Origin: an uncultured Spartobacteria bacterium
Lineage (GTDB): Bacteria; Verrucomicrobiota; Verrucomicrobiia; Chthoniobacterales; UBA6821
Assembly: GCA_903913785.1 (NCBI GenBank)
Contig: CAIWMF010000166.1
Coordinates: forward strand, 1-32,875
Direction of reading: 5' to 3'
DNA: 32,875 nt
Program-made: the position numbers and the translations under genes
The notes under the pieces: generated by a model
Seen by the model: the letters and a program-made list of their open reading frames with translations, nothing else
Database searches by the model: none
Told to the model about the DNA's origin: nothing
Shown: positions 2,151 to 29,447 of the stretch, in pieces
Layout of the letters: each line of letters begins with the position of its first letter
How positions within the stretch are numbered: the first letter of the stretch is position 1

Positions 2151-3304
2151 AGTTCTAGTCTTTTTGGAAATTTGCTCAGCAGTTGATATCCCGTAGGGAT
2201 GACGGTAATGACGTCTTCATGACGGACCCCTCCGAGGCCAGGAATATAGAGACCAGGTTCTATCGTAAAGACATGGCCTGTTTTTAAGATAGCTTTTCCA
2301 AAACGAGGCTCTTCATGAAGTTCAAGTCCCAGGCCATGACCGGTCCCATGAAAAAAACCGCTCCAACGTCCCTCTTTTTGTTCCTTAGGATATCCTTGTC
2401 TGGCAAAAAATTGTTCCACACTATGATGAATTTTTTGCCCGGAGACTTTGGGTTTTATTTGTTTTAAGGCCATCTCTTGTCCCTTTAGGCAAGTGCTCCA
2501 GAGGTGCTGTTGCCCTTGAGTTGCCTTTCCTCGAACAATGGTGCGTGTCAGATCACCATAATAGCCGCTTTTGGCAGCCCGCGGGAAAAGATCAATAATG
2601 ATCATTTGATGGGCATAGAGAATACCATGACCACGTTCATGGGGGTCACATGCTTGCAAGCCTCCTGCAATAATAGAATCTCCTTGAGGAATGCCTCCTG
2701 CCCGGTAAAGAGTTACTTCGATTTCCTCGCGAAGACGTTCTGAGCTTAGTGGCTTTCGATGCCATAGGAGCTGATGCTCTTTGCCTATTTTGGTCTGTTT
2801 GAGTATTTCCATCGCACGCGCCATTCCTACCTCGGTAATGTGCATGGAGCGCTCGAGAGTTTTTATTTCCTCAGATGTTTTGATGGCACGTTGAGCAAAA
2901 AAAAGACCTTCCTTCGTTTCTAACGTTATTCCGGACTCTTCAAGAGAACGTGCAAGCGAGAGTGAAAAGACACTTGGAACAATCACATGAAAGACGTGTT
3001 GTTTTTTAAGAAAAGCAGCGATTACCTGAGTGTCGCTCGGCTCTTTTTTGAGCTCTGATGCAACTTCTTTTGCTAAATGACTCCATGACATCACCTCATC
3101 TACGCGTCCCTCTCTTCGGCCCCGATCTAGCTCAAGATCACTTAAGAGAATGATTTTTTTTCCATGATGTTCGAGATAAATAAAATCATCTGGTGCGCGA
3201 AACCCAGTCGCATAGAACATATCAGCTCCGCGTTCGCTCTCAGAAATCAGCAAACGCGATAGGGGTACTTTTGTGATCTTATTATTTCCTGCTTTCTTCT
3301 TCAT
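2147..3304 (-). CDS. pepP: Xaa-Pro aminopeptidase (M24 family)
   Basis: M24 motifs: GDLTRTIVRG, FFHGTGHGLGLELHE, TIEPGLYIPGLGGVRHEDVITV. Confidence 0.85.
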   Translation of the reverse strand: MKKKAGNNKITKVPLSRLLISESERGADMFYATGFRAPDDFIYLEHHGKKIILLSDLELDRGRREGRVDEVMSWSHLAKEVASELKKEPSDTQVIAAFLKKQHVFHVIVPSVFSLSLARSLEESGITLETKEGLFFAQRAIKTSEEIKTLERSMHITEVGMARAMEILKQTKIGKEHQLLWHRKPLSSERLREEIEVTLYRAGGIPQGDSIIAGGLQACDPHERGHGILYAHQMIIIDLFPRAAKSGYYGDLTRTIVRGKATQGQQHLWSTCLKGQEMALKQIKPKVSGQKIHHSVEQFFARQGYPKEQKEGRWSGFFHGTGHGLGLELHEEPRFGKAILKTGHVFTIEPGLYIPGLGGVRHEDVITVIPTGYQLLSKFPKRLEL

Positions 3305-6002
3305 GGCTAGAAAAGGCTTCTAAATAGGATTTTCTTGAGATTTCAAGTTCAGCTTGTTGTTGCTCCGCATTCCTAGGATAACCTTCCCATCGAAAATCAT
3401 CGCGCATGGGCGAAAAAGATAATCCTGACCTATAGATAGAACCAAGCCGTTTCTCTTGATCGTTATATTTTCGGGCTCCAGCTTTGATGAATAAAGGTAG
3501 AGAATTCACATCACCGCCCGCATTCTGATAATGCTGTAGAAAGAGATTGCGTTCTTCTGCTGCTGCGTTCAAAGCAATCATATTGGGATCGTTGATAACT
3601 TGTGAAATAAGACGCTCCATTTTCATAGCATGCTCAGTCGCTAGTTGGTAATCATTGATGCTCCTTGGATTGATAAGAGTCTTTTCAGTTTCTTGATGAA
3701 TGGCGTTCGAACAGCTTTTTTTAAGATTTGCAAAGAGTGTCGTCATGATCTCCTTTTGCAGAGAGCGATCCCTGCTTAATTGATCTAGTACCTCAGAGCT
3801 CTGAGATACTTCTTTGTTCGTGAGTTCTTGGTGTGGATTTTTTGAAGCATGAGAGATAGTAGGATCGTCTTTGAGGGTTAGCCCGGATATTTCATACTGA
3901 TCGTGACGAGGAGACTGCGAAGGCTGATGGGGTAAGGCGAGTGATGAAGTCTGACAACGGCTGTATGAGTACATACTGCCCGAGGAAGACTTCAAGCTCA
4001 ACGCAGCATCCGTCTGCCTTCCCAGCTTCCGCAGTAGATCAGTATGAAATATTCGGGCTAGGCCCTCTTGTGAAGATAATTTTTCATGTGATGGCTCATG
4101 GTCATTATACTCATTCTCTCTGAGTTGAGGGAATTGTTGGTGATCCGCGGGGGGCATGCTAATAGCTTTGTGTAACTGACTCAGGGCTGAAAAAATATCC
4201 GTGAAACGATCCTTTGCAGTGACAAGACGAGGTAAATACTCTTTCTCCTCTTCTTGTGGAAAATAAGTATTTTGATTGTGAGGATAGAAAAAACGTTGCG
4301 GCATCGCTGTTTTTAGATTCAGAGGCATGGCTTGATATGCGAATTGTTGAGATGCAGTTGCCGCTTTTTGATATAATTTAAGAGCTTCTCGATCTAGAAG
4401 CTGTGTTCCAGATAAGGCCAAATCCAGACAATCAGCTCCAAATTTTAAAATGATAGCACTCTCATCATGGCCATTATTAAGGGCATCTAGAACTTGCTCG
4501 TGTAAGGCATGCGCCTGCGTCGTTATCGATGCTAGGAGATCAGTTGTTTTGAAATTGTTCCGATCAAATGTATAGATATTAGATATAAACCGATGCTCGT
4601 TTGGTTTGGGATTCCATGGATAAAAATACTCACAATCGTTCCTCTCGGAATTCAAGTGTATTGGAATGTAATGCAATGTATTTCTAAAATCACGGCTCAC
4701 AGGACGTGTGGGATGGATTTTTCTAACAATAGAATAGCCATCGTAATGACTCATTTCTAATGTTTGGCTCAGGGATCGTTGATAAGTTGAGATGTACTTG
4801 CTGCAAGTTTCATCATGTAGGATTTTATTCCCCACGTCAGATTGATCGAAAAAGCGCCTAATCTCCTCTGCTGCAGTGATTGGATCGGAAAGCAATCGCT
4901 TAGATTCCTCACGCTGCTTTTCAAACGAGAAGCGAGCTTCCTCTAAAGCAAGCTTTCTATGGTATATAAACTCAGCCATATCCCGTGTATCGATACCATT
5001 GTTTGAGAGACGACGGACCGTCTGGTTTGGCTGATCCGCAAACTGAAGCAGTAACTTTTGTTCTAATGTATCGATATGAGCCTTGCGTTCTTGAGCTTTT
5101 AAATACCTACCGTCCCATGGCGTAATAAGTTCATCCGTTTTACCGCGTAGAGAAGAAGGCTTCCTATCAATAGCAGTACGGTCCGCAAGACTATAGATGC
5201 GATCAGGCTTGAGTATGCTGGCATTGAGAAGAGTGGCTATTAATATCCGAGCCAATCTGTGCTGCTGCTGATTGTCAATATTCGTGAGAAAAGTCTGACG
5301 AGGTTCTTCCTGGGGACTTAGAATGTTGTTTTGTGCTCTTTCATGGGATACATTTTGAAGATTGTGTGTATGCTCTCTCGTTACTGTTCTTTCTCCAGAC
5401 CAAAAGCCCATCAGCAATCCCCCAAATTGCGCGATCCTCTCTAACCAGGTGCCAGCTTCTAGTGCTTCAGGAGGAGGGATCATCATTTCCTCAAGATTAT
5501 TTTTTATCTCCATGGGATAGAAAAAAAGTTGATTGCTTTTAAGCCATGGATCAATGCGATCAGTAGAATCACTATCCTGAGCATTTTTTATATGATATGC
5601 GTGGTGCTCCTGCAGATTATCTAAAATATTGTCCATATGCTCGCACTCAGAAATTTGGTTTTGAGGGCATGTCATAAGAGCACTATCTCTTTGACTCACA
5701 AATGGAATCCCTAGGTGTGCCTCAGTGATTGGCTCTTGGCCCATATCACGCTCATCATACTCATAGGCACCTGGTGTCCCAAGCCGATAGATGGGAATTG
5801 CTTGCCCTAGGCAAGAAGCCCCCATCACCCTATCATAGAAATGATGAGGATCACTCTTGGAAAAAACATTCAAAAAGTCGATATAGTACGAGAATCTCTT
5901 TTTTTCCTGCGAGTCATTTGCATGGAGCGTGCTAGACATTCCCAACAAAAAAGAAAAACAAAGAATGAAAATAAAACAAAGAGAGCTCTGGGAGTATTTC
6001 AT
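3282..6002 (-). CDS. Large secreted protein with an N-terminal degenerate SUMF1/FGE-like motif and an internal palindromic-element peptide
   Basis: 906-aa ORF; signal-peptide-like N-terminus; YIDFLNVFSKSDPHHFYDRVMG resembles the FGE-like protein at 16576-18261; residues encoded by 3878-4061 are repeat-derived. Confidence 0.75.
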   Translation of the reverse strand: MKYSQSSLCFIFILCFSFLLGMSSTLHANDSQEKKRFSYYIDFLNVFSKSDPHHFYDRVMGASCLGQAIPIYRLGTPGAYEYDERDMGQEPITEAHLGIPFVSQRDSALMTCPQNQISECEHMDNILDNLQEHHAYHIKNAQDSDSTDRIDPWLKSNQLFFYPMEIKNNLEEMMIPPPEALEAGTWLERIAQFGGLLMGFWSGERTVTREHTHNLQNVSHERAQNNILSPQEEPRQTFLTNIDNQQQHRLARILIATLLNASILKPDRIYSLADRTAIDRKPSSLRGKTDELITPWDGRYLKAQERKAHIDTLEQKLLLQFADQPNQTVRRLSNNGIDTRDMAEFIYHRKLALEEARFSFEKQREESKRLLSDPITAAEEIRRFFDQSDVGNKILHDETCSKYISTYQRSLSQTLEMSHYDGYSIVRKIHPTRPVSRDFRNTLHYIPIHLNSERNDCEYFYPWNPKPNEHRFISNIYTFDRNNFKTTDLLASITTQAHALHEQVLDALNNGHDESAIILKFGADCLDLALSGTQLLDREALKLYQKAATASQQFAYQAMPLNLKTAMPQRFFYPHNQNTYFPQEEEKEYLPRLVTAKDRFTDIFSALSQLHKAISMPPADHQQFPQLRENEYNDHEPSHEKLSSQEGLARIFHTDLLRKLGRQTDAALSLKSSSGSMYSYSRCQTSSLALPHQPSQSPRHDQYEISGLTLKDDPTISHASKNPHQELTNKEVSQSSEVLDQLSRDRSLQKEIMTTLFANLKKSCSNAIHQETEKTLINPRSINDYQLATEHAMKMERLISQVINDPNMIALNAAAEERNLFLQHYQNAGGDVNSLPLFIKAGARKYNDQEKRLGSIYRSGLSFSPMRDDFRWEGYPRNAEQQQAELEISRKSYLEAFSSHEEESRK
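3878..4061 (-). repeat. Type A palindromic element, full length, inside the 906-aa ORF
   Basis: TTAGCCCGGATATTTCATACTGATC...GATCAGTATGAAATATTCGGGCTAG; 184 bp including both YTAR edges; about 87% identical to the copy at 22849-23032 (24 mismatches by hand count). Confidence 0.92.
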
Positions 6003-6733: not shown

Positions 6734-6753
6734 GCATGAAATATTCGTTTTAA
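6734..6753. repeat. Probable solo TIR remnant
   Basis: Minus strand TTAAaaCGAATATTTCATgC matches the consensus YTARCCCGAATATTTCATAC at 14/16 TIR positions after the YTAR; the cysJ-like ORF stop TAA is in the TTAA. Confidence 0.5.
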
Positions 6754-7898: not shown

Positions 7899-7977
7899 GG
7901 ATCTACTTTAGAATAAAAAGAGAGAACTGAAAAGAGGAAGCTATCTATTTTCCTTTACACGCATTGTCCTGAATATG

Positions 7978-7996
7978 GAAATATCCGGGCTAGAGC
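7978..7996. repeat. Solo TIR remnant
   Basis: ggAAATATCCGGGCTAG, the canonical element end, between the cysJ-like and tolB starts. Confidence 0.5.
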
Positions 7997-9234: not shown

Positions 9235-9272
9235 TTAACCCGCATATTTCATACTGATCGTGACGAGGAGGC
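9235..9272. repeat. Element fragment (one TIR plus inner arm) between convergent tolB and brnQ
   Basis: TTAACCCGCATATTTCATACTGATCGTGACGAGGAGGC; ends exactly at the brnQ stop codon. Confidence 0.8.
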
Positions 9273-10430
9273 TTATTGACCCCAATCACTACTAACCGGT
9301 TGTAGTGATATAGAAAGACGGCGCTGTTTTTTGAGCTGCCGTACTTTATCGATAATATGCCAAAGGGTATAAACAATTAACACAGGATAGATCACTTGAA
9401 TGATTGGTGATAGGAGACTCATGATGCGGCTAAACCCTAGATTCGTGACACATGCAGTGATGAGGCTTGTGATGATCAGTGCTGTTTTATAACTCAGGCG
9501 CCCTCCACATAAATCCTTGTGAAGATACATTGCAAAAATCGCTGTTAAAGAAATTGCTGTGGCCAGACACGAGATCGCAATAGTGATATTGGCAAGTAGT
9601 CCCCCCTCTTGCCCCAAAATAATGATTGCTAATTTACTAAAAATATCTCCTCGTTCAACATGAACAAGCTCTTGGGCATGAAAACCCGCAACAAGGCAAA
9701 ATCCCATGTAGACTAATGCTAAGAGAATACCCCCAATCAGACTTGCTTGAATGCCTAAAAGGAGCATGGCCCGTGCGTCTTTGCGTTTTTCAGGATGCAT
9801 CCCTTTGCTCAGACCGCTCATGATTAATCCAGCTAAAAAAATAGTTGCTAGTAAATCACAGGTCCCGTAGCCAGAGAGGAGGCCCTTTGCAAAGCCCTGG
9901 GCCGGGGTCAAAGCTGATGTCATCAGTAGAGATGGGTTTAAGAGGCCCTTAATAATTAAGGTCAGTAATAAAATAATTTTTAACGGCCCAAAAAATCGCC
10001 CCAACAAATCAACAATAATACTATTCTTAATGGTGCATGCAAAAATCAAGAGGGCACACACAATAGCAAAGAAAAATAGATCAAGTGCAGGAATATGTAT
10101 CTTAATAGCGGCATACGAAATCACAATACAACGGGGAATCAGCGCGAAGGGCCCCAAGAGGACCATGCAAATGAGAATCATTAGGAATGAGGGAATCTGT
10201 CCAAGAGGCGCTAAGAAGATTTTATAATCTCCGCGACTCAGCATCGTTGCAAAAAGCCCTAGCAAGGGAACGAAAACAGCTGTTAATAAAAATCCCAGCA
10301 CTCCCCAGAGAAGCTGATGACCGGAATCTTTTCCTAAAATTAATGGAAAAATGACATTACCAGAGCCAAAGAGCATAGCAAACATAGCAAATCCCGTGAT
10401 AAGGATCTTTCGAATTTGAGTAAATGACAT
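9273..10430 (-). CDS. brnQ: Branched-chain amino acid transport system carrier (LIVCS family)
   Basis: ITGFAMFAMLFGSGNVIFPLILG..., multiple TM segments, GLIMSGLSKGMHP region. Confidence 0.88.
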   Translation of the reverse strand: MSFTQIRKILITGFAMFAMLFGSGNVIFPLILGKDSGHQLLWGVLGFLLTAVFVPLLGLFATMLSRGDYKIFLAPLGQIPSFLMILICMVLLGPFALIPRCIVISYAAIKIHIPALDLFFFAIVCALLIFACTIKNSIIVDLLGRFFGPLKIILLLTLIIKGLLNPSLLMTSALTPAQGFAKGLLSGYGTCDLLATIFLAGLIMSGLSKGMHPEKRKDARAMLLLGIQASLIGGILLALVYMGFCLVAGFHAQELVHVERGDIFSKLAIIILGQEGGLLANITIAISCLATAISLTAIFAMYLHKDLCGGRLSYKTALIITSLITACVTNLGFSRIMSLLSPIIQVIYPVLIVYTLWHIIDKVRQLKKQRRLSISLQPVSSDWGQ

Positions 10431-11181: not shown

Positions 11182-11247
11182 CTAATGCAGCATCCACACT
11201 GCCTTCGCGCTCTCCTCGTCACGATCGGTATGAAATATGCGGGTTAA
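11182..11247. repeat. Internally deleted palindromic element between convergent genes
   Basis: atgcagcatccacactgccttcgcgctctcctcgtcacgatcggtatgaaatatgcgggTTAA: arm fragment fused to an intact TIR. Confidence 0.8.
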
Positions 11248-12824
11248 AGATTTTCTCTGGATGATTCTCCTTTAGCGGAGGCTTCTTTTTTATAAGCAAT
11301 TCTCGTGTGAAACATCCCAAGGAGTGTGCTGACAAGGCTGTCGGCAATTTTATGAAGCTCCCCAATAGTAATGGGGCATTCATCGAATTGATGATCATGC
11401 AAGCGTTCTTTGAGCAGTGTATGAACGAGGTCATCGATGCGCTGTGGTGTAGGACGCTCTAAACTGCGTGTTGCACTTTCGGCGGCATCGGCAAGACTAA
11501 TGATAGCGGCTTCCTTTGTGCGAGGCCTTGGACCAGGGTAACGAAATTGATCCATGTTCACCGTAGGTATATCTTCAAGACGTATATTGATGGTTTTTCC
11601 ACCTGCACGAATATCTTCTTCTTGCTGGCGAGCGCGCTGGAAGAAAAAGTCAATGACAGTCGTTCCGTGATGCTGACGAATGATGTCAATAATACGGCGA
11701 TGTAATTTATTCTTTAAGCCGAGATCAACACCCTCCTTGACATGAGCCGTAATAATGAGAGCGCTCATTGTTGGGGTTAGTTCTTCATGAGGGTTATCAT
11801 CAGAGCGCATGTTTTCTGTAAAATATTCTGGTTTTATTAATTTCCCAATATCATGAAAATAGGCGCCGACACGGCAAATCGTTGGATTGGCATGAATAGC
11901 TTCTGCCGCCGCCTCTGCGAGTGTAGCCATGGCAAGACTGTGCTGATAGGTGCCGGAAGCTTCTAGACTTAATCTGCGTAAGAGAGGGTGATTTAAGTCA
12001 GCCATTTCAAGCCAAGAGATATCAGTTGTGACATGGAAGAGGTGTTCTAACATGGGCAAGAGTCCACTCACCACGACTGATGTACCCAGTCCGCTCGCAA
12101 AGGCTGCAGCGCATTGACAGAGAATAAGGAGCCAATCATTATTTCCCGAAAAAGCTCTAGAAGAGATCTCAATTTTGCCAAAAAGAATCGCTAAGAGGAG
12201 CGTGGCCATTCCAACATAGATGCCAGCACGGATGAGTCGCGAGCGTCGTCGTAGCTGAAAGCTCACGATGACAGCAATTAAGCCTGTGATGAATGAAATG
12301 ATTAAAAAGGCAATATTGATATTGATAAAACGATCCACTAAACAAGCACCCCAAAGTCCCCCGAAAACAATGGCAAAGAAACCTTCCTTTTTTCCTAAGA
12401 GTGCCGTGAGTGTTAGTGGAGCTAGTGTGTAGGGAGCGAGTAGCGGTACTATTGTTCGATAAAAATCCTCATGTCCTTCGCCGAGAATGAGTACTTTTAC
12501 CAAAAGGAGCTGACAGAGAAGTGTTCCAAACAGAAGTGTTAACCGTGAATTGTTACAAAAAATATCATAGGCTCCTATGCGCAGTTGAAAGAGTGCAGCA
12601 AGAAAAAGCAGTAGCGCAATAAGCCCTTGTTGAGTTCCAATGGAAGTTTCGCCAATCATCATGATTCCGAAAAGCCCGCTCCCTATGATGAGTATTAACA
12701 AACAACGCACGAGCCAATGTGCGCTTAAGAATCTGCTTAGTTTAGTCTCTTTAACGCGCCGTCTGATTTTGCCGCAGGTAAGACCGCGCGCTGCAAGTTG
12801 ACGATGCTCTAAATATTTTACCAT
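11244..12824 (-). CDS. 7TM-HD (PgpH/YqfF-like) membrane HD-domain phosphohydrolase
   Basis: Multiple TM helices followed by LSLEASGTYQHSLAMATLAEAAAEAI...CRVGAYFHDIGKLIKPEYFTENM (HDIG family). Confidence 0.85.
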   Translation of the reverse strand: MVKYLEHRQLAARGLTCGKIRRRVKETKLSRFLSAHWLVRCLLILIIGSGLFGIMMIGETSIGTQQGLIALLLFLAALFQLRIGAYDIFCNNSRLTLLFGTLLCQLLLVKVLILGEGHEDFYRTIVPLLAPYTLAPLTLTALLGKKEGFFAIVFGGLWGACLVDRFININIAFLIISFITGLIAVIVSFQLRRRSRLIRAGIYVGMATLLLAILFGKIEISSRAFSGNNDWLLILCQCAAAFASGLGTSVVVSGLLPMLEHLFHVTTDISWLEMADLNHPLLRRLSLEASGTYQHSLAMATLAEAAAEAIHANPTICRVGAYFHDIGKLIKPEYFTENMRSDDNPHEELTPTMSALIITAHVKEGVDLGLKNKLHRRIIDIIRQHHGTTVIDFFFQRARQQEEDIRAGGKTINIRLEDIPTVNMDQFRYPGPRPRTKEAAIISLADAAESATRSLERPTPQRIDDLVHTLLKERLHDHQFDECPITIGELHKIADSLVSTLLGMFHTRIAYKKEASAKGESSRENL

Positions 12825-12905: not shown

Positions 12906-13093
12906 CTAGCCCGAATATTTCATACTGAATCGTCATGAGGCGCTGTGCAAAGCTTGTTAGTACAAGGCGGGTGAAGGATTGTGATGCAGGGCTGTATGTG
13001 TCCATACCGCCCAAATCACCATTCGAGACCAACGCAGTAGCCATAGAGCTTTCCACAAGCCGTAATAGATTTAGTGTGAAATATCCGGGCTAG
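12906..13093 (+). repeat. Type B palindromic element, full length
   Basis: CTAGCCCGAATATTTCATACTGAATCGTCATGAGGCGC...GATTTAGTGTGAAATATCCGGGCTAG; 188 bp; near-identical in inverse orientation to 30226-30413. Confidence 0.92.
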
Positions 13094-13176
13094 CCCTCAT
13101 CAAACTTCATCACTCGCCTTACCCCATCAGCCTTCGCGGCCTCCTCGTCACGATCAGTATGAAATATCCGGGCTAG
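13090..13176 (+). repeat. Half of a type A element, in tandem with the B element and sharing its CTAG edge
   Basis: aacttcatcactcgccttaccccatcagccttcgcggcctcctcgtcacgatcagtatgaaatatccgggCTAG matches the right half of type A. Confidence 0.9.
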
Positions 13177-15842: not shown

Positions 15843-16412
15843 ATGGAGAATTTTATCACAATGACACACCTTAGCTCTACGAGCCTTAGGCCGGCTCTCT
15901 TTTTGGATCGTGATGGAACCTTAATGAAGGAAGTCGATCATTGTCACCGTCCAGAAGATGTCGAGGCGATAGAAGGCGCTGCTCTGGCCCTTGCGCAAGC
16001 ACATCAACAAGGTTGGTGCAATGTGATTATTACGAACCAAAGCGGTATAGGTCGTGGGTATTTTAGCGAAAAGCAATTTCAGGCAGTACAAGAGGAATTA
16101 CAGCGTCAGTTAGGGCAACTTATTGATGCCACCTACATGTCATCAGCTCTTCCTAACACAGATTCTTTGCGTCGCAAGCCTGCCCCTGGAATGATCTTCG
16201 AGGCTGCAAGAGATCTCGGGATTGATCTCCCTTCTTCCTATATGATAGGAGACCGCTCCTCTGATATTGAGGCGGGTAGGGCTGCTGGCTGTAGAACGAT
16301 TTTGGTCTTAAGCGGATATGGCGAGGCACATCGTGATGCCCGTGCAGATTATATTGCCAAGGATGTCACGGAAGCTATTGGGATAGCACTTAGCCGGGAT
16401 ATTTCACACTGA
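15843..16412 (+). CDS. gmhB: D-glycero-beta-D-manno-heptose 1,7-bisphosphate 7-phosphatase
   Basis: HAD-IIIA motifs ALFLDRDGTLMKEVDHCHRPEDVEAIEGA, IITNQSGIGRGYF, RKPAPGMI, MIGDRSSDIEAGRAAG. Last residues (…SRDISH*) are encoded by the palindromic element. Confidence 0.9.
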   Translation: MENFITMTHLSSTSLRPALFLDRDGTLMKEVDHCHRPEDVEAIEGAALALAQAHQQGWCNVIITNQSGIGRGYFSEKQFQAVQEELQRQLGQLIDATYMSSALPNTDSLRRKPAPGMIFEAARDLGIDLPSSYMIGDRSSDIEAGRAAGCRTILVLSGYGEAHRDARADYIAKDVTEAIGIALSRDISH

Positions 16413-16569
16413 TCTACTGCGAAAACCGGGAAGCTAGGATGGATGCTGCGCCCAAGCTCACTTTTTGACTTGGAGCGGGCTGTACACATACAGCCCGGCG
16501 TCAAAATGCTGGGTCTGCGTGACTCGCTTGGCAAAGCTCGTTACGATCCGTATGAAATATTCGGGTTAA
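16390..16569 (+). repeat. Type C palindromic element, full length, overlapping the 3' end of gmhB
   Basis: TTAGCCGGGATATTTCACACTGATCTACTGCG...GATCCGTATGAAATATTCGGGTTAA; 180 bp; central stem CGGGCTGT-ACACAT-ACAGCCCG nested in TTTTGAC/GTCAAAA. Confidence 0.9.
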
Positions 16570-18261: not shown

Positions 18262-18338
18262 CAGCGGACAATAGCATCTAGATTATTTCTTGCTGTCGTT
18301 TGCTTGCTAAAAATTAGCGCTTTTTTGCAAAACGCTCC

Positions 18339-18400
18339 AACGCAGCATCCATTAGCCTTTCGAGCGTCTGAATTAGATTGGCATGAAATATTCGGGCTCA
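18339..18400. repeat. Degraded palindromic element fragment
   Basis: aacgcagcatccattagcctttcgagcgtctgaattagattggcatgaaatattcgggctca: arm plus TIR; contains the ATG at 18383. Confidence 0.75.
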
Positions 18401-19375
18401 GTTTTCACCGAGCTTGACCAAGATGTTATGGTCATGAAAATGCAAGAGCCTTCTCAGTTATCACATCTTCCTCGAGGAGTGACACTCTTTGGCCCAGTCC
18501 GAGAAAAGGGGGTTTCACTCACCCGTTACTCTTATAAAAAGAGTGATCCCACAGCCCTATCAGATTGCTTTAAAAACGACTCATTAATTCTGCTTCTTAA
18601 TATCGGTGGCCATGCTCAGATAGCATATTCTTCGAAAAAAGAGCCTCTTCAGACTTGCCGCTTTGCTATTACTCCTCAAAAAATAGTTACCTTAGTTACA
18701 AAAAATGCACTTCTTCTCATGCAGCGAGAAGGAGGTCAAAAACATCATTTTTTGATTCTAGAAATATCTCGTTGCTGGCTTGCCAGGCTTATTAAAGCGT
18801 ATCCTCATCGGACAAAAAATGAGATCCATGATTTTCTTGAGCAAACGTCTCCAAACATCAAGCCGACGCTCTTTCCCTTTTGTATGAATTCGCGGGCACT
18901 CTGTGAGGAGCTTTCTTTACCTTATGACGGGCAAGCGCGCCCAGCCTTATGGTTTTATGCAAAAATTCTTGAGCTCGTCTCGCATATACTCTTAGAACCG
19001 CTCGAAGATTTTTGTTGTCATCGTAAAGAACGTGTCGCTCTAGAACGCATTGCATCCGTGAAAAAATATCTCGCTCAAAATCTCCTTCATCCTCCGTCTC
19101 TCATAGAATGTTCACAGAAGGCAGGGTGCAGCTCGTCGTATCTGAGTCGTACTTTTTCAGCGTACACGGGGATGACGATGAGTCGTTATCTAAGAAATCT
19201 ACGCCTGGAGCAAGCAGCGGTGCTCTTGCGTAGTGGCAAGTACAATGTAACAGAGGCGGCTATGGCTGTTGGGTATTTAAGCTTAAGTCATTTTTCTAAA
19301 GCTTTTGCCGAGATGTTTGGTTCCTCTCCCTGTACCTTTGGCTTGTCTAAAAAATCCCCTGATTTTGATTCGTGA
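18383..19375 (+). CDS. AraC-family transcriptional regulator
   Basis: Two-HTH C-terminus: SLIECSQKAGCSSSYLSRTFSAYTGMTMSRYLRNLRLEQAAVLLRSGKYNVTEAAMAVGYLSLSHFSKAFAEMFGSSPC. Start may be downstream of 18383. Confidence 0.88.
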   Translation: MKYSGSVFTELDQDVMVMKMQEPSQLSHLPRGVTLFGPVREKGVSLTRYSYKKSDPTALSDCFKNDSLILLLNIGGHAQIAYSSKKEPLQTCRFAITPQKIVTLVTKNALLLMQREGGQKHHFLILEISRCWLARLIKAYPHRTKNEIHDFLEQTSPNIKPTLFPFCMNSRALCEELSLPYDGQARPALWFYAKILELVSHILLEPLEDFCCHRKERVALERIASVKKYLAQNLLHPPSLIECSQKAGCSSSYLSRTFSAYTGMTMSRYLRNLRLEQAAVLLRSGKYNVTEAAMAVGYLSLSHFSKAFAEMFGSSPCTFGLSKKSPDFDS

Positions 19376-20631: not shown

Positions 20632-23583
20632 ATGTCCAAAATTCTCTTTATAGGATTAGATGCAGCCGATTGGGGGCTGGTTTCACAAAAATTTCTTGAT
20701 GGTAAACTCCCTCATTTATCTAAGGTCATTGCTCAGGGAGTGAGCGGTCCTTTAAGATCTATTGATCCTCTTTTTTCACCTTCTCTTTGGGCCACAATAG
20801 CTACTGGCAAAAGAGCCTACGAGCATGGCATTACTGGATTTACACTACCAGATCATAATGGAAGTGGTTTGCGGCCCTACGATAGAATGTCGCGGCGCTC
20901 TCCTGCACTCTGGAATATGTTCACCCACAAACAAAAAACCTCTCATGTCATTGGGTGGTGGAATACTGCTCCTGCAGAAAAAATTCTAGGAGTCATGGTT
21001 GATGAAACATTTCGTATTGCACATCGTCCTTGCGAGGAACCATGGGAGATTGCACCTGCGAGTGTTAGCCCGATGTCGTTTGCAAGTAAGCTTGCTCAAG
21101 AACGTGTCCATCCTCAGCAATTATCCGAAAAGCTCTTGCGATTTCTCGTGCCTAAGCTCTATGAAATTAATCCGAGTACTGATTTTAGAATAGCTGCTAT
21201 TGCAAAAGTCCTCGCTGAAGATCTCACCACACTTCAAGTAACTTTGCGTTTAATGAAAGAGGAACCGTGGGATTTGACCTCACTTTATCTCATCGGGCTT
21301 GATAGCCTATCTCATCTCGCGATGTGCTACCGGGAGCCAATATTACCTGGAGAAAAAGAACGTGATTGCGAGCTTTATGGAGGCGTTGTTGACCGGGCCT
21401 ACGAACTCTACGATCAGTGGATTGGACAGCTCATGCAAGCAGCAGGAAAGGCTTCCACTGTTGTGATCGCCTCTGATCATGGTTTCTATCATGATGTGCG
21501 CAAGAGGCCTGTTTTAGGGATCGAAGAGACAGCCCCAGTTTTACAACATGCACCCATTGGAACCCTTATCATGGAAGGACCCTCCCTTTGTAAGGGCCGG
21601 AGCATCCTTCATGCCACCATCCTAGATCTGTGTCCTACACTACTGACCCTTGCAGGATTGCCTGTAGGAAGAGATATGCCAGGCAAGGTGCTTGAGGGTG
21701 CTTTTGTTCAAAAACCAATCATTAAGAAAATACGGTCTTGGGATAGCTCTTGGGAAGCTTCTCTAAGTCACGCTGCTCCTACGGCAGAGTCAACAGAAAG
21801 AGCATTACGTCAGCTTGTCTCTCTTGGTTATCTGCGAGAAATGCCCGAGAGTAAACAAGCAGCCATCTTCGAGGGGCAATGCAATGACTATTTACATCGT
21901 GCACTTTGTTTTCTCGCTGATGATCGCATCGATCAGGCGCTACCTCTCTTACAACAAGCAAATGTTCTTTCAAAAAAAAGGGCACACTCCTTCGTGCGCA
22001 CTGACATCTTAGAGGAACTCGCATTCCTCTATCTTCGTCTTGGAGCAAAACGTCGTGCCGCAGCTTGCTTTTATCACGTTGCACGCGACTCTCGTCGCAA
22101 TGCTACGAAGGCTCATGAACAATTTTGGAAAAAAACAGAATCCACCTCGCAGAAGAATCTTTCTTTTAAAGATGCATGGGAAATACGTGCTCTCATCGCT
22201 AGAAGCAACCTGGATGAGGAGAAAATAGCCTTCATCACAACACTCGCACGTTTTTTAGCTCACGAAAAAAATCAGGACCTAGAATCCCTCCTGGGTTATT
22301 GCACGATGCACCCTGAAGATTTTTTTGCCCATGTGCACGTTGGTCGGTTGGCCTTACAATATGAGAGGAACGAAGAGGGGATTGCCTTCTTGCGTCATGT
22401 AGCAAACAGACAATCTGAGAATGCGGCTCCGCTTGCGTTGTTAGCCAACTATTATAATGAACATAGTAATGCCATGGAGGCAGAAAAATGCGCACAAGAA
22501 GCACTCGGTCGCGATCCTTTACATAGACCCTCGTGGCTTGCACTAGCAGCTTCTTATGTGCATCAAGGTCGATGGAAGGAAGCATCAAAAGCCGCACGGG
22601 AGGCCCAGAAGAGTCTTGTAGAAAGAAGTGATGCATTCAAGCTGCTTGCTCGTATTTCCCTTGAAGGTAAACAAGATTCACGAAAAGCGATGTTCTATCT
22701 TCAACGTGCAGAGAAAGCGCAACTATTTTTGTCTCAAAGCGTGAATCATTCTCCATTGCCAAAACAAAGAGCCCATGTAGTCAACAAGAATTTCTTGAGA
22801 AGTCAGCGCTCGCAGCCTCCTCGTAACAATCAGTATGAAACATGCGGGTTAACCCGGATATTTCACGCCGATCACCTGCGGAGACCGGGAAGCCTGATGG
22901 ATGCTGCGTTGAGCTCGAAGTCTTCCTCGGGCAGTATGTACTCATACAGCCATCGTCAGACTTCATCACTCGCCTTACCCCATCCGCCTTCGCGGCCTCC
23001 TCGTCACGATCGGTATGAAACATGCGGGTTAAACCGACCGATTATCGTGACTGGACTTCCTCGATCTGGCACTTCCTTAATCATGCAGATGCTCGCTGCT
23101 GGAGGCATTATGATTGATGCCGATGAGCACCGTCGTCCAGACAAACATAACCCTCAGGGCTACTTTGAACATGAAAAGGTAAAAACCATGACAGCGCATG
23201 CAGATTTTCTCAAAGCAGGGTTTGCCATCAAAGTTGTCATACCAATTCTCTTCAATCTTCCTCGCGGTCATCAATACCAGATCATTTGGGTGCGTCGAGC
23301 GCTTTGTGAAGTCATCACCTCTCAGCATCGTATGGGAGGATACGTGGCAACAGCATCAGAGCTCCATCATATCTACCATGAGTATGAAATACAGGCTACA
23401 GCCTATATTCAAAGTCAGGGTTGGCCTTTGCTGATGCTCCATTATAGCTCGATTATAGAAGACCCAGAGCTAAGCGCAGAGGCAATGGCTCGTTTTCTAG
23501 ATAAAAAACTCCCTCTCACAGCAATGAGAGACGTAGTGATTCCAAATCTATATCGAGTGCGCGAGGGGGGCTCCTTGTCATGA
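20632..23583 (+). CDS. Fusion protein: alkaline-phosphatase-superfamily phosphodiesterase, TPR region, sulfotransferase; with in-frame palindromic-element insertion
   Basis: N-term LFIGLDAADWGLVSQKFLDGKLPHLSKV...SLWATIATGK, VVIASDHGFY; helical TPR-like middle; C-term RPIIVTGLPRSGTSLIMQML (PAPS-binding P-loop). Confidence 0.85.
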   Translation: MSKILFIGLDAADWGLVSQKFLDGKLPHLSKVIAQGVSGPLRSIDPLFSPSLWATIATGKRAYEHGITGFTLPDHNGSGLRPYDRMSRRSPALWNMFTHKQKTSHVIGWWNTAPAEKILGVMVDETFRIAHRPCEEPWEIAPASVSPMSFASKLAQERVHPQQLSEKLLRFLVPKLYEINPSTDFRIAAIAKVLAEDLTTLQVTLRLMKEEPWDLTSLYLIGLDSLSHLAMCYREPILPGEKERDCELYGGVVDRAYELYDQWIGQLMQAAGKASTVVIASDHGFYHDVRKRPVLGIEETAPVLQHAPIGTLIMEGPSLCKGRSILHATILDLCPTLLTLAGLPVGRDMPGKVLEGAFVQKPIIKKIRSWDSSWEASLSHAAPTAESTERALRQLVSLGYLREMPESKQAAIFEGQCNDYLHRALCFLADDRIDQALPLLQQANVLSKKRAHSFVRTDILEELAFLYLRLGAKRRAAACFYHVARDSRRNATKAHEQFWKKTESTSQKNLSFKDAWEIRALIARSNLDEEKIAFITTLARFLAHEKNQDLESLLGYCTMHPEDFFAHVHVGRLALQYERNEEGIAFLRHVANRQSENAAPLALLANYYNEHSNAMEAEKCAQEALGRDPLHRPSWLALAASYVHQGRWKEASKAAREAQKSLVERSDAFKLLARISLEGKQDSRKAMFYLQRAEKAQLFLSQSVNHSPLPKQRAHVVNKNFLRSQRSQPPRNNQYETCGLTRIFHADHLRRPGSLMDAALSSKSSSGSMYSYSHRQTSSLALPHPPSRPPRHDRYETCGLNRPIIVTGLPRSGTSLIMQMLAAGGIMIDADEHRRPDKHNPQGYFEHEKVKTMTAHADFLKAGFAIKVVIPILFNLPRGHQYQIIWVRRALCEVITSQHRMGGYVATASELHHIYHEYEIQATAYIQSQGWPLLMLHYSSIIEDPELSAEAMARFLDKKLPLTAMRDVVIPNLYRVREGGSLS
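22796..22852 (+). repeat. Partial type A element directly upstream of the full copy, sharing the TTAA edge
   Basis: cgctcgcagcctcctcgtaacaatcagtatgaaacatgcgggTTAA; encodes SQPPRNNQYETCGL versus SRPPRHDRYETCGL in the full copy. Confidence 0.85.
22849..23032 (+). repeat. Type A palindromic element, full length, inside the 983-aa ORF
   Basis: TTAACCCGGATATTTCACGCCGATC...GATCGGTATGAAACATGCGGGTTAA; 184 bp with identical TTAA edges. Confidence 0.93.
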
Positions 23584-23602
23584 TCAGTATGAAATATTTG
23601 GA
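23566..23602 (+). repeat. Element fragment at the 3' end of the 983-aa ORF
   Basis: ggggggctccttgtcatgatcagtatgaaatatttgg matches gcctcctcgtcacgatcagtatgaaatattcgg; contains the ORF stop TGA. Confidence 0.75.
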
Positions 23603-25904: not shown

Positions 25905-26063
25905 CTATACGTTTCCCTACAAGCGTGCGTGTTTCCATGGTATCGACTTGATCGAGGCATCAACAAAAATGCATTTTTTATAACAAGGGGCTTGCACTCA
26001 GGAGAGGATTTTATTCTTATGCTTTCACCTCCTCGCACCTGCGAAATGAAAGGGGTGAATTCA

Positions 26064-26336
26064 ATGCCTATTAAAAAGATAGCTCTCAAAGCAAAAGCGC
26101 CAGTAAAAGCAAAAGCGCCAGTAAAAGCAAAGCCCAAAGCTGTAGCAAAAACAAAAGCACCTGCAAAAGCGAAGCCAAAAGCTCTTGTCAAGCTCAAAGC
26201 ACCTGCAAAAGCGAAACCGAAAGCCACCGTCAAGCTCAAAGCTCCGGTGAAATCGAAAGCTGCAGCTAAGCCGAAAGCTCCTGTCAAAGCAAAAGCTCCC
26301 GCTAAAAAGAAAGTAGTTACTACAAAAAAGAAATAA
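26064..26336 (+). CDS. Lysine/alanine/proline-rich repetitive basic protein (histone H1-like)
   Basis: MPIKKIALKAKAPVKAKAPVKAKPKAVAKTKAPAKAKPKA...; KAKAPxK repeats. The ORF track start (25929) is probably too far upstream. Confidence 0.75.
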   Translation: MPIKKIALKAKAPVKAKAPVKAKPKAVAKTKAPAKAKPKALVKLKAPAKAKPKATVKLKAPVKSKAAAKPKAPVKAKAPAKKKVVTTKKK

Positions 26337-29344: not shown

Positions 29345-29447
29345 GAGTGTGCGGATATAACATACTGTTCTCAAATGAATGTTAGGAACTGTGACTGTAA
29401 TAAGCTCTTCAAGCCGTAATAGATTTAGTGTGAAATATTCGGGCTAG
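29345..29447. repeat. Decayed, internally deleted type B element
   Basis: Left: gtgcggatataacatactgttc (degenerate TIR). Right: aagccgtaatagatttagtgtgaaatattcgggCTAG (intact B right end). Confidence 0.7.

Follow-up and report, generated by a model that had tools for sequence, protein, structure and literature searches.

The element at positions 16390-16569 is very probably a copy (termed C1) of a high-copy MITE that is moved in trans by a DDE transposase of the IS1380 family (piggyBac-like) and that forms 60-codon in-frame inserts in protein genes. In the window, by which we mean the whole 32,875-nt stretch of DNA analysed, C1 belongs to a large family of elements that are quasi-palindromic over their full length and have common ends; the family is represented there by five complete copies (A1, A2, B1, B2 and C1) and several halves (Table 1). 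The interval singled out in the preliminary description takes in C1 only. This copy enters the GmhB-like gene out of phase, with its target at codon position 2, and the gene is terminated by a TGA at 16410-16412, inside the element. Copy A2 is located in the variable linker between the TPR and sulfotransferase domains of its host protein, where it is read as the peptide TRIFHADHLRRPGSLMDAALSSKSSSGSMYSYSHRQTSSLALPHPPSRPPRHDRYETCGL; this insert is absent from the orthologues in four congeners.

Table 1. Copies and fragments of the element in the window, with the genes they touch
Feature	Positions	Strand	Evidence or remark
C1, 5′ target duplication (TTAG)	16390-16393	+	YTAR direct duplication, 184 copies
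MITE copy C1, 172 bp, reverse of A/B orientation	16394-16565	-	sequence, arm comparison, folding
C1, 3′ target duplication (TTAA)	16566-16569	+	sequence
HAD-phosphatase gene (GmhB-like)	15843-16412	+	last codons and stop supplied by C1
MITE copy A1, 176 bp, TTAG/CTAG	3882-4057	+	in phase within 906-aa ORF 3282-6002(-)
MITE copy A2, 176 bp, TTAA/TTAA	22853-23028	-	in phase within ORF 20632-23583
Half element immediately before A2, TTAA in common, also in frame	22768-22848	+	window comparison
Host gene of A2: phosphodiesterase + TPR + sulfotransferase protein, 983 aa	20632-23583	+	
MITE copy B1, 180 bp, CTAG/CTAG	12910-13089	+	sequence, folding
A-type half element adjoining B1, CTAG in common	13094-13175	+	
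MITE copy B2, 180 bp, CTAA/CTAA	30230-30409	-	flank pair direct, not inverted
Element fragment, left end	9235-9273	+	at 3′ end of gene 9273-10430(-)
Element fragment, right end	11201-11247	+	its TTA is the TAA stop of gene 11244-12824(-)
Element fragment	18338-18399	+	at 5′ end of AraC-type gene 18383-19375
Element fragment	23568-23597	+	over stop of 983-aa ORF
Element fragment, right end, B type	29410-29447	+	

Tandem copies with a single YTAR in common were seen twice in the window (13090-13093 and 22849-22852) and at L037:6882-7237, as if the flank of each copy looked like a target to the next. Weak single-end matches near gene ends or starts (2134-2149, 6737-6752 and 7977-7992) are possibly remnants of old elements. 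The window also encodes, at 25929-26336, a small protein with lysine/alanine-rich repeats (AAAGCx units) that is histone-H1-like in appearance.

A search of the window for the terminal sequence TARCCCGNATATTTCA gave 20 matches (up to 3 mismatches) vs. 1.66 expected, and 566 such ends were counted in the 1.63-Mb genome (up to 1 mismatch) vs. 0 for the reversed-pattern control. The shared termini proposed in the preliminary description are thus real and recurrent, although the YTAR included in them is a target duplication that lies outside the element. The central loops agreed with those described, namely GTATG-TACT-CATAC in A2, GTATG-GACA-CATAC in B2 and CTGT-ACACAT-ACAG in C1; the loop of A1 is the reverse complement of that of A2 (AGTA), and that of B1 reads TGTC. 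Pairing of the arms extends over nearly their full length, as expected of the whole-element quasi-palindromes that had been claimed, and the arm said to be shared by C and A was found at 4018-4060 and 16391-16433 with 86% identity. The division into three related subfamilies holds as far as relatedness is concerned, but C1 runs opposite to A1 and B1 (A-C score 56 reversed, 30 direct), and the arm bodies of A and B, thought to differ, are instead homologous end to end (score 62 direct, 30 reversed). The arms are also mosaic, with like left or right arms recurring in different combinations between copies.

Complete elements measure 172-184 bp, with a modal length of 176 bp, carry no transposase of their own and are present in hundreds of copies in the genome. 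The ends were found in all six genomes of the genus examined, in burst-like numbers (566, 567, 75, 29, 22 and 4). An order-wide scan of 213 genomes revealed abundance only in this genus, the others having 0-4 exact ends each, some of which sit at the ends of IS1380 copies; the relatives that could be named are Chthoniobacterales/Verrucomicrobiia MAGs. A scan of IMG/VR with the extended end gave no match, so nothing pointed to a phage element. The family also includes 60-bp mini-palindromes with its ends, and longer relatives of 250-410 bp (L102:2149-2445, L134:334-610, L153:3984-4352) whose arms contain additional hairpin modules; the majority of these elements are not frame-preserving or contain stops. 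In a sublineage of genome G002 (contigs such as C18, C24 and C32) both ends have changed together, to CCCGCAAATTTCA on both sides.

Where the left target is non-palindromic, it is repeated directly 12 times and inverted once, showing that YTAR is a direct duplication of 4 bp; the two flanks were identical in 111 of 184 copies, sampled from stretches that make up about half of the genome. An origin from a TA-targeting transposon of the IS630 type was dropped once this duplication was seen. PF13701 matches a single sequence of the genome (E 1e-163), a 453-aa ORF encoding an IS1380-family transposase, and both ends of its locus (L078) are TARCCCGNATATTTCA with 0 mismatches. The ORF is bounded by CTAA followed by CCCGCATATTTCATACTGA on one side and by TGTGAAATATCCGGG followed by CTAG on the other, so that the flanks of this IS in the transposase-bearing genome (G000) differ by one base. 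A genome from another family of the order (G083) contains a 70%-identical transposase with like ends and CTAG on both sides; the MITE copies and this IS therefore have a 4-bp YTAR duplication in common. The right end of the IS recurs at two further contig ends, one of them abutting a MITE, which indicates that the IS is multi-copy. At L140:1519-1701 a MITE directly adjoins the right end of an IS1380 element, with TTAG in common.

Taken together, the CCCG...CGGG ends, the 4-bp YTAR duplication and an IS with matching ends identify the element as the MITE of an IS1380-type transposon, and from these sequence features the transposon of the same genome is the likely driver of its spread. Similarity between MITE and IS is confined to the outer 13-19 bp, the body of the MITE matching no known source. 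The transposase, present in G000, was not found in G003 (73% complete) despite equally many elements.

Comparison with element-free orthologues gave proof of insertion. After removal of exactly 60 codons, four host proteins aligned to such orthologues with 0-1 gaps: the LMW phosphatase (65% identity, 1 gap), 3-dehydroquinase (56%, 0 gaps) and two further hosts (48% and 82%, 0 gaps each). For the 82% pair the empty site could be seen at the DNA level as a single CTAA vs. TTAA-element-TTAA. In the LMW phosphatase the P-loop is kept and YwlE aligns on both sides of the insert, with residues 19-44 and 110-220 of the query matching residues 2-27 and 34-145 of the chain, which leaves about 60 extra residues.

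The length of the insert follows from simple geometry, as 176 bp of element and 4 bp of duplication add 180 bp, or 60 codons net, per insertion. Among 89 176-mers with flanks, 60 had an open + strand and 71 an open - strand in the frame that begins with the first base of the target (YTA = Leu); the other frames had about 1-5 stops on average. In the diverged genomes G002, G004 and G005 the - strand remained open in 18 of 21 copies vs. 7.5 predicted, and the + strand in 8 of 21 vs. 4.5; the predictions assume substitutions placed at random in the nearest G000/G003 copy, and the copies are not independent.

Of 186 sampled copies, 29 were situated 90 bp or more inside an ORF, the hosts being simple open frames predicted from the sequence. 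Of these, 27 were in phase 0 and length-preserving (orientations 10 and 17), a count that is partly circular because other phases bring stops. The contrast in length is less circular: 27 of 111 frame-preserving copies were inside ORFs vs. 2 of 75 other copies (p 2e-5), and for class A alone 25 of 81 vs. 1 of 46. We infer that this bias reflects survival of in-frame copies rather than insertion preference. The peptide L-T/A-R-I-F-H-T-D...Y-E-I-S-G recurs in unrelated hosts, but selection on its sequence was not supported by codon-position variation (p 0.10). In a prephenate dehydratase the dehydratase and ACT domains are separated by two elements in tandem, and in GlnD an element lies between HD and ACT.

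We then considered why the palindrome is kept. All five complete window copies folded better as RNA than their dinucleotide shuffles (z-scores of -10.3 for A1, -9.8 for B1, -5.8 for A2 and B2, and -4.3 for C1; z only -2.5 for C1 folded as DNA). Among 32 aligned non-redundant 176-mers drawn from five species, standard pairs filled 80.4% of pair cells vs. 35-41% when partners were slid, cells changed on both sides numbered 159 vs. 44-61, and the covariation score was 0.232 vs. 0.072-0.089. Double changes from one standard pair to another on the same branch of the tree numbered 21, vs. 0-4 with partners slid by 1 to 6 columns and 2.2 ± 1.5 with random re-pairing. Covariation is not limited to the ends of the element and takes in its outer, middle and central stems. 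Weak consensus folds given by RNAalifold for the first mixed alignments are probably due to blurring by mosaic arms and gaps. Neither shuffle-like folding nor a lack of covariation, which together would have spoken against a maintained structure, was therefore observed. Of the two causes offered in the preliminary description, compensatory change and selection for a folded strand, the former is supported, but the fold is not the main story of the element.

It is possible, if somewhat doubtful, that selection for a folded RNA or ssDNA formed by one strand maintains the palindrome, with mobility and in-frame insertion as side effects. Besides the stem covariation, the A(+) strand gives the better fold of the two in 29 of 32 cases, and one-sided transitions at pairs supported on both strands give 125 G.U vs. 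57 A.C on A(+) (p 5e-7), those at unpaired sites being symmetric. Favouring of one strand of a pair points to a single-stranded form. Yet the + strand is antisense to host transcription more often than not (38:21 in ORFs, 29:13 in co-directional spacers, 67:34 together), and the G.U excess is equal in both element orientations; these strand and G.U counts are indicative only, as they depend on genes called as open frames, on parsimony and on a structure taken from the same sequences. A bias independent of orientation in a mostly antisense strand implies that the constrained strand is not host mRNA. Selection of the structure on host mRNA was accordingly rejected, the orientation being opposite to that expected, and the strand-specific bias may stem from another single-stranded form or from a mutational process. 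In addition, Rfam gave 0 matches in the window at the gathering threshold.

Quasi-palindromes are known to undergo arm-to-arm correction by template switching or gene conversion, and the covariation could in principle be mutational, one arm being copied onto the other within the hairpin and the structure being unselected. The free mosaicism of arms among copies agrees with such copying, but we regard it as unlikely to be the whole cause, as it predicts strand symmetry and the one-sided changes are asymmetric. Either selection or arm-to-arm copying may underlie the covariation. That the elements are host transcription terminators or mRNA 3′-end hairpins is improbable: convergent gene pairs do hold 28 of 88 spacer copies, while making up 135 of all 892 pairs of neighbouring genes, and several gene ends fall in elements, but a large number of copies are located within ORFs or in co-directional or divergent spacers, and insertions tolerated at gene ends would yield an equal pattern.

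The IS1380-linked MITE is, in its mode of working, most like the Rickettsia palindromic elements (RPE) and their Wolbachia counterparts (Ogata et al. 2000, 2002, 2005; reviewed in PMC10969869, PMC2229807, PMC3767692). Like RPE, which are palindromic repeats of 100-200 bp, the element described here (27 in-phase copies) is found in frame in protein genes unrelated to one another, prefers one open frame and yields a peptide that recurs between hosts. This likeness is one of description; the taxon is different and no membership of the same family is claimed. The Verrucomicrobiota MITE occurs in another phylum with 566 ends, vs. 44 copies in R. conorii (PMC10969869), is usually open on both strands and adds exactly 60 codons net. 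It also has a target duplication, a candidate transposase and empty sites, whereas the target duplication of RPE is entered as "?" (PMC2229807).

With IS1380 elements (PF13701) the MITE shares the ends and the YTAR/TTAA-type 4-bp target of the IS in its genome and in G083, but its whole length is quasi-palindromic, its body is its own and its size is coding-compatible, so that it is not a simple IS deletion derivative. IS1380 transposases served as outgroup to the TTAA-targeting piggyBac superfamily, their eukaryotic cousin (PMC10813416). ERIC, Correia/NEMIS and RUP (PMC2229807) are similarly small, non-autonomous, highly base-paired and present in many copies, but they have TA at their ends, in contrast to the 4-bp YTAR duplication and other ends found here, and systematic in-phase insertion into ORFs is a feature of the Verrucomicrobiota MITE. 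In the open-licence literature searched we found no description of in-frame palindromes in Verrucomicrobiota. In-frame palindromes as such are known from Rickettsia and Wolbachia; the present case adds another phylum, a candidate transposase, a target duplication and empty sites.

We propose that the IS1380 transposase would bind the CCCGNATATTTCA ends, insert the element at a YTAR target and duplicate the 4 bp, the modal form thereby adding 180 bp. As the whole-length quasi-palindrome is centred in phase, the frame from YTA would usually be open on both strands. With an in-phase Leu codon as target, the product would be a 60-aa insert (L-T/A-R-I-F-H-T-D ... Y-E-I-S-G) in either orientation with the host ORF left open; other phases would bring stops and gene truncation, and such copies would persist chiefly in spacers or where genes end, C1 being a probable example. 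More tentatively, the palindrome may have been shaped as an element for coding compatibility, with a net length of 60 codons and mostly stop-free in-phase frames on both strands over large divergence, making protein genes a usable niche, and with one strand kept foldable for the element's own spread.

The ends, the target duplication, the transposase gene with matching ends, the 60-codon insertion, the empty sites, the frame on both strands and the covariation were all seen directly, and mobilisation by the IS1380 transposase is the reading that they suggest. A simple geometry, in which length plus duplication is a multiple of three and the centre is in phase, lets the element survive inside a gene whichever way it is oriented, and in one genus many ORFs carry extra 60-aa segments. 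With a candidate transposase, a defined duplication and empty sites at hand, the spread of protein-coding palindromes becomes testable.
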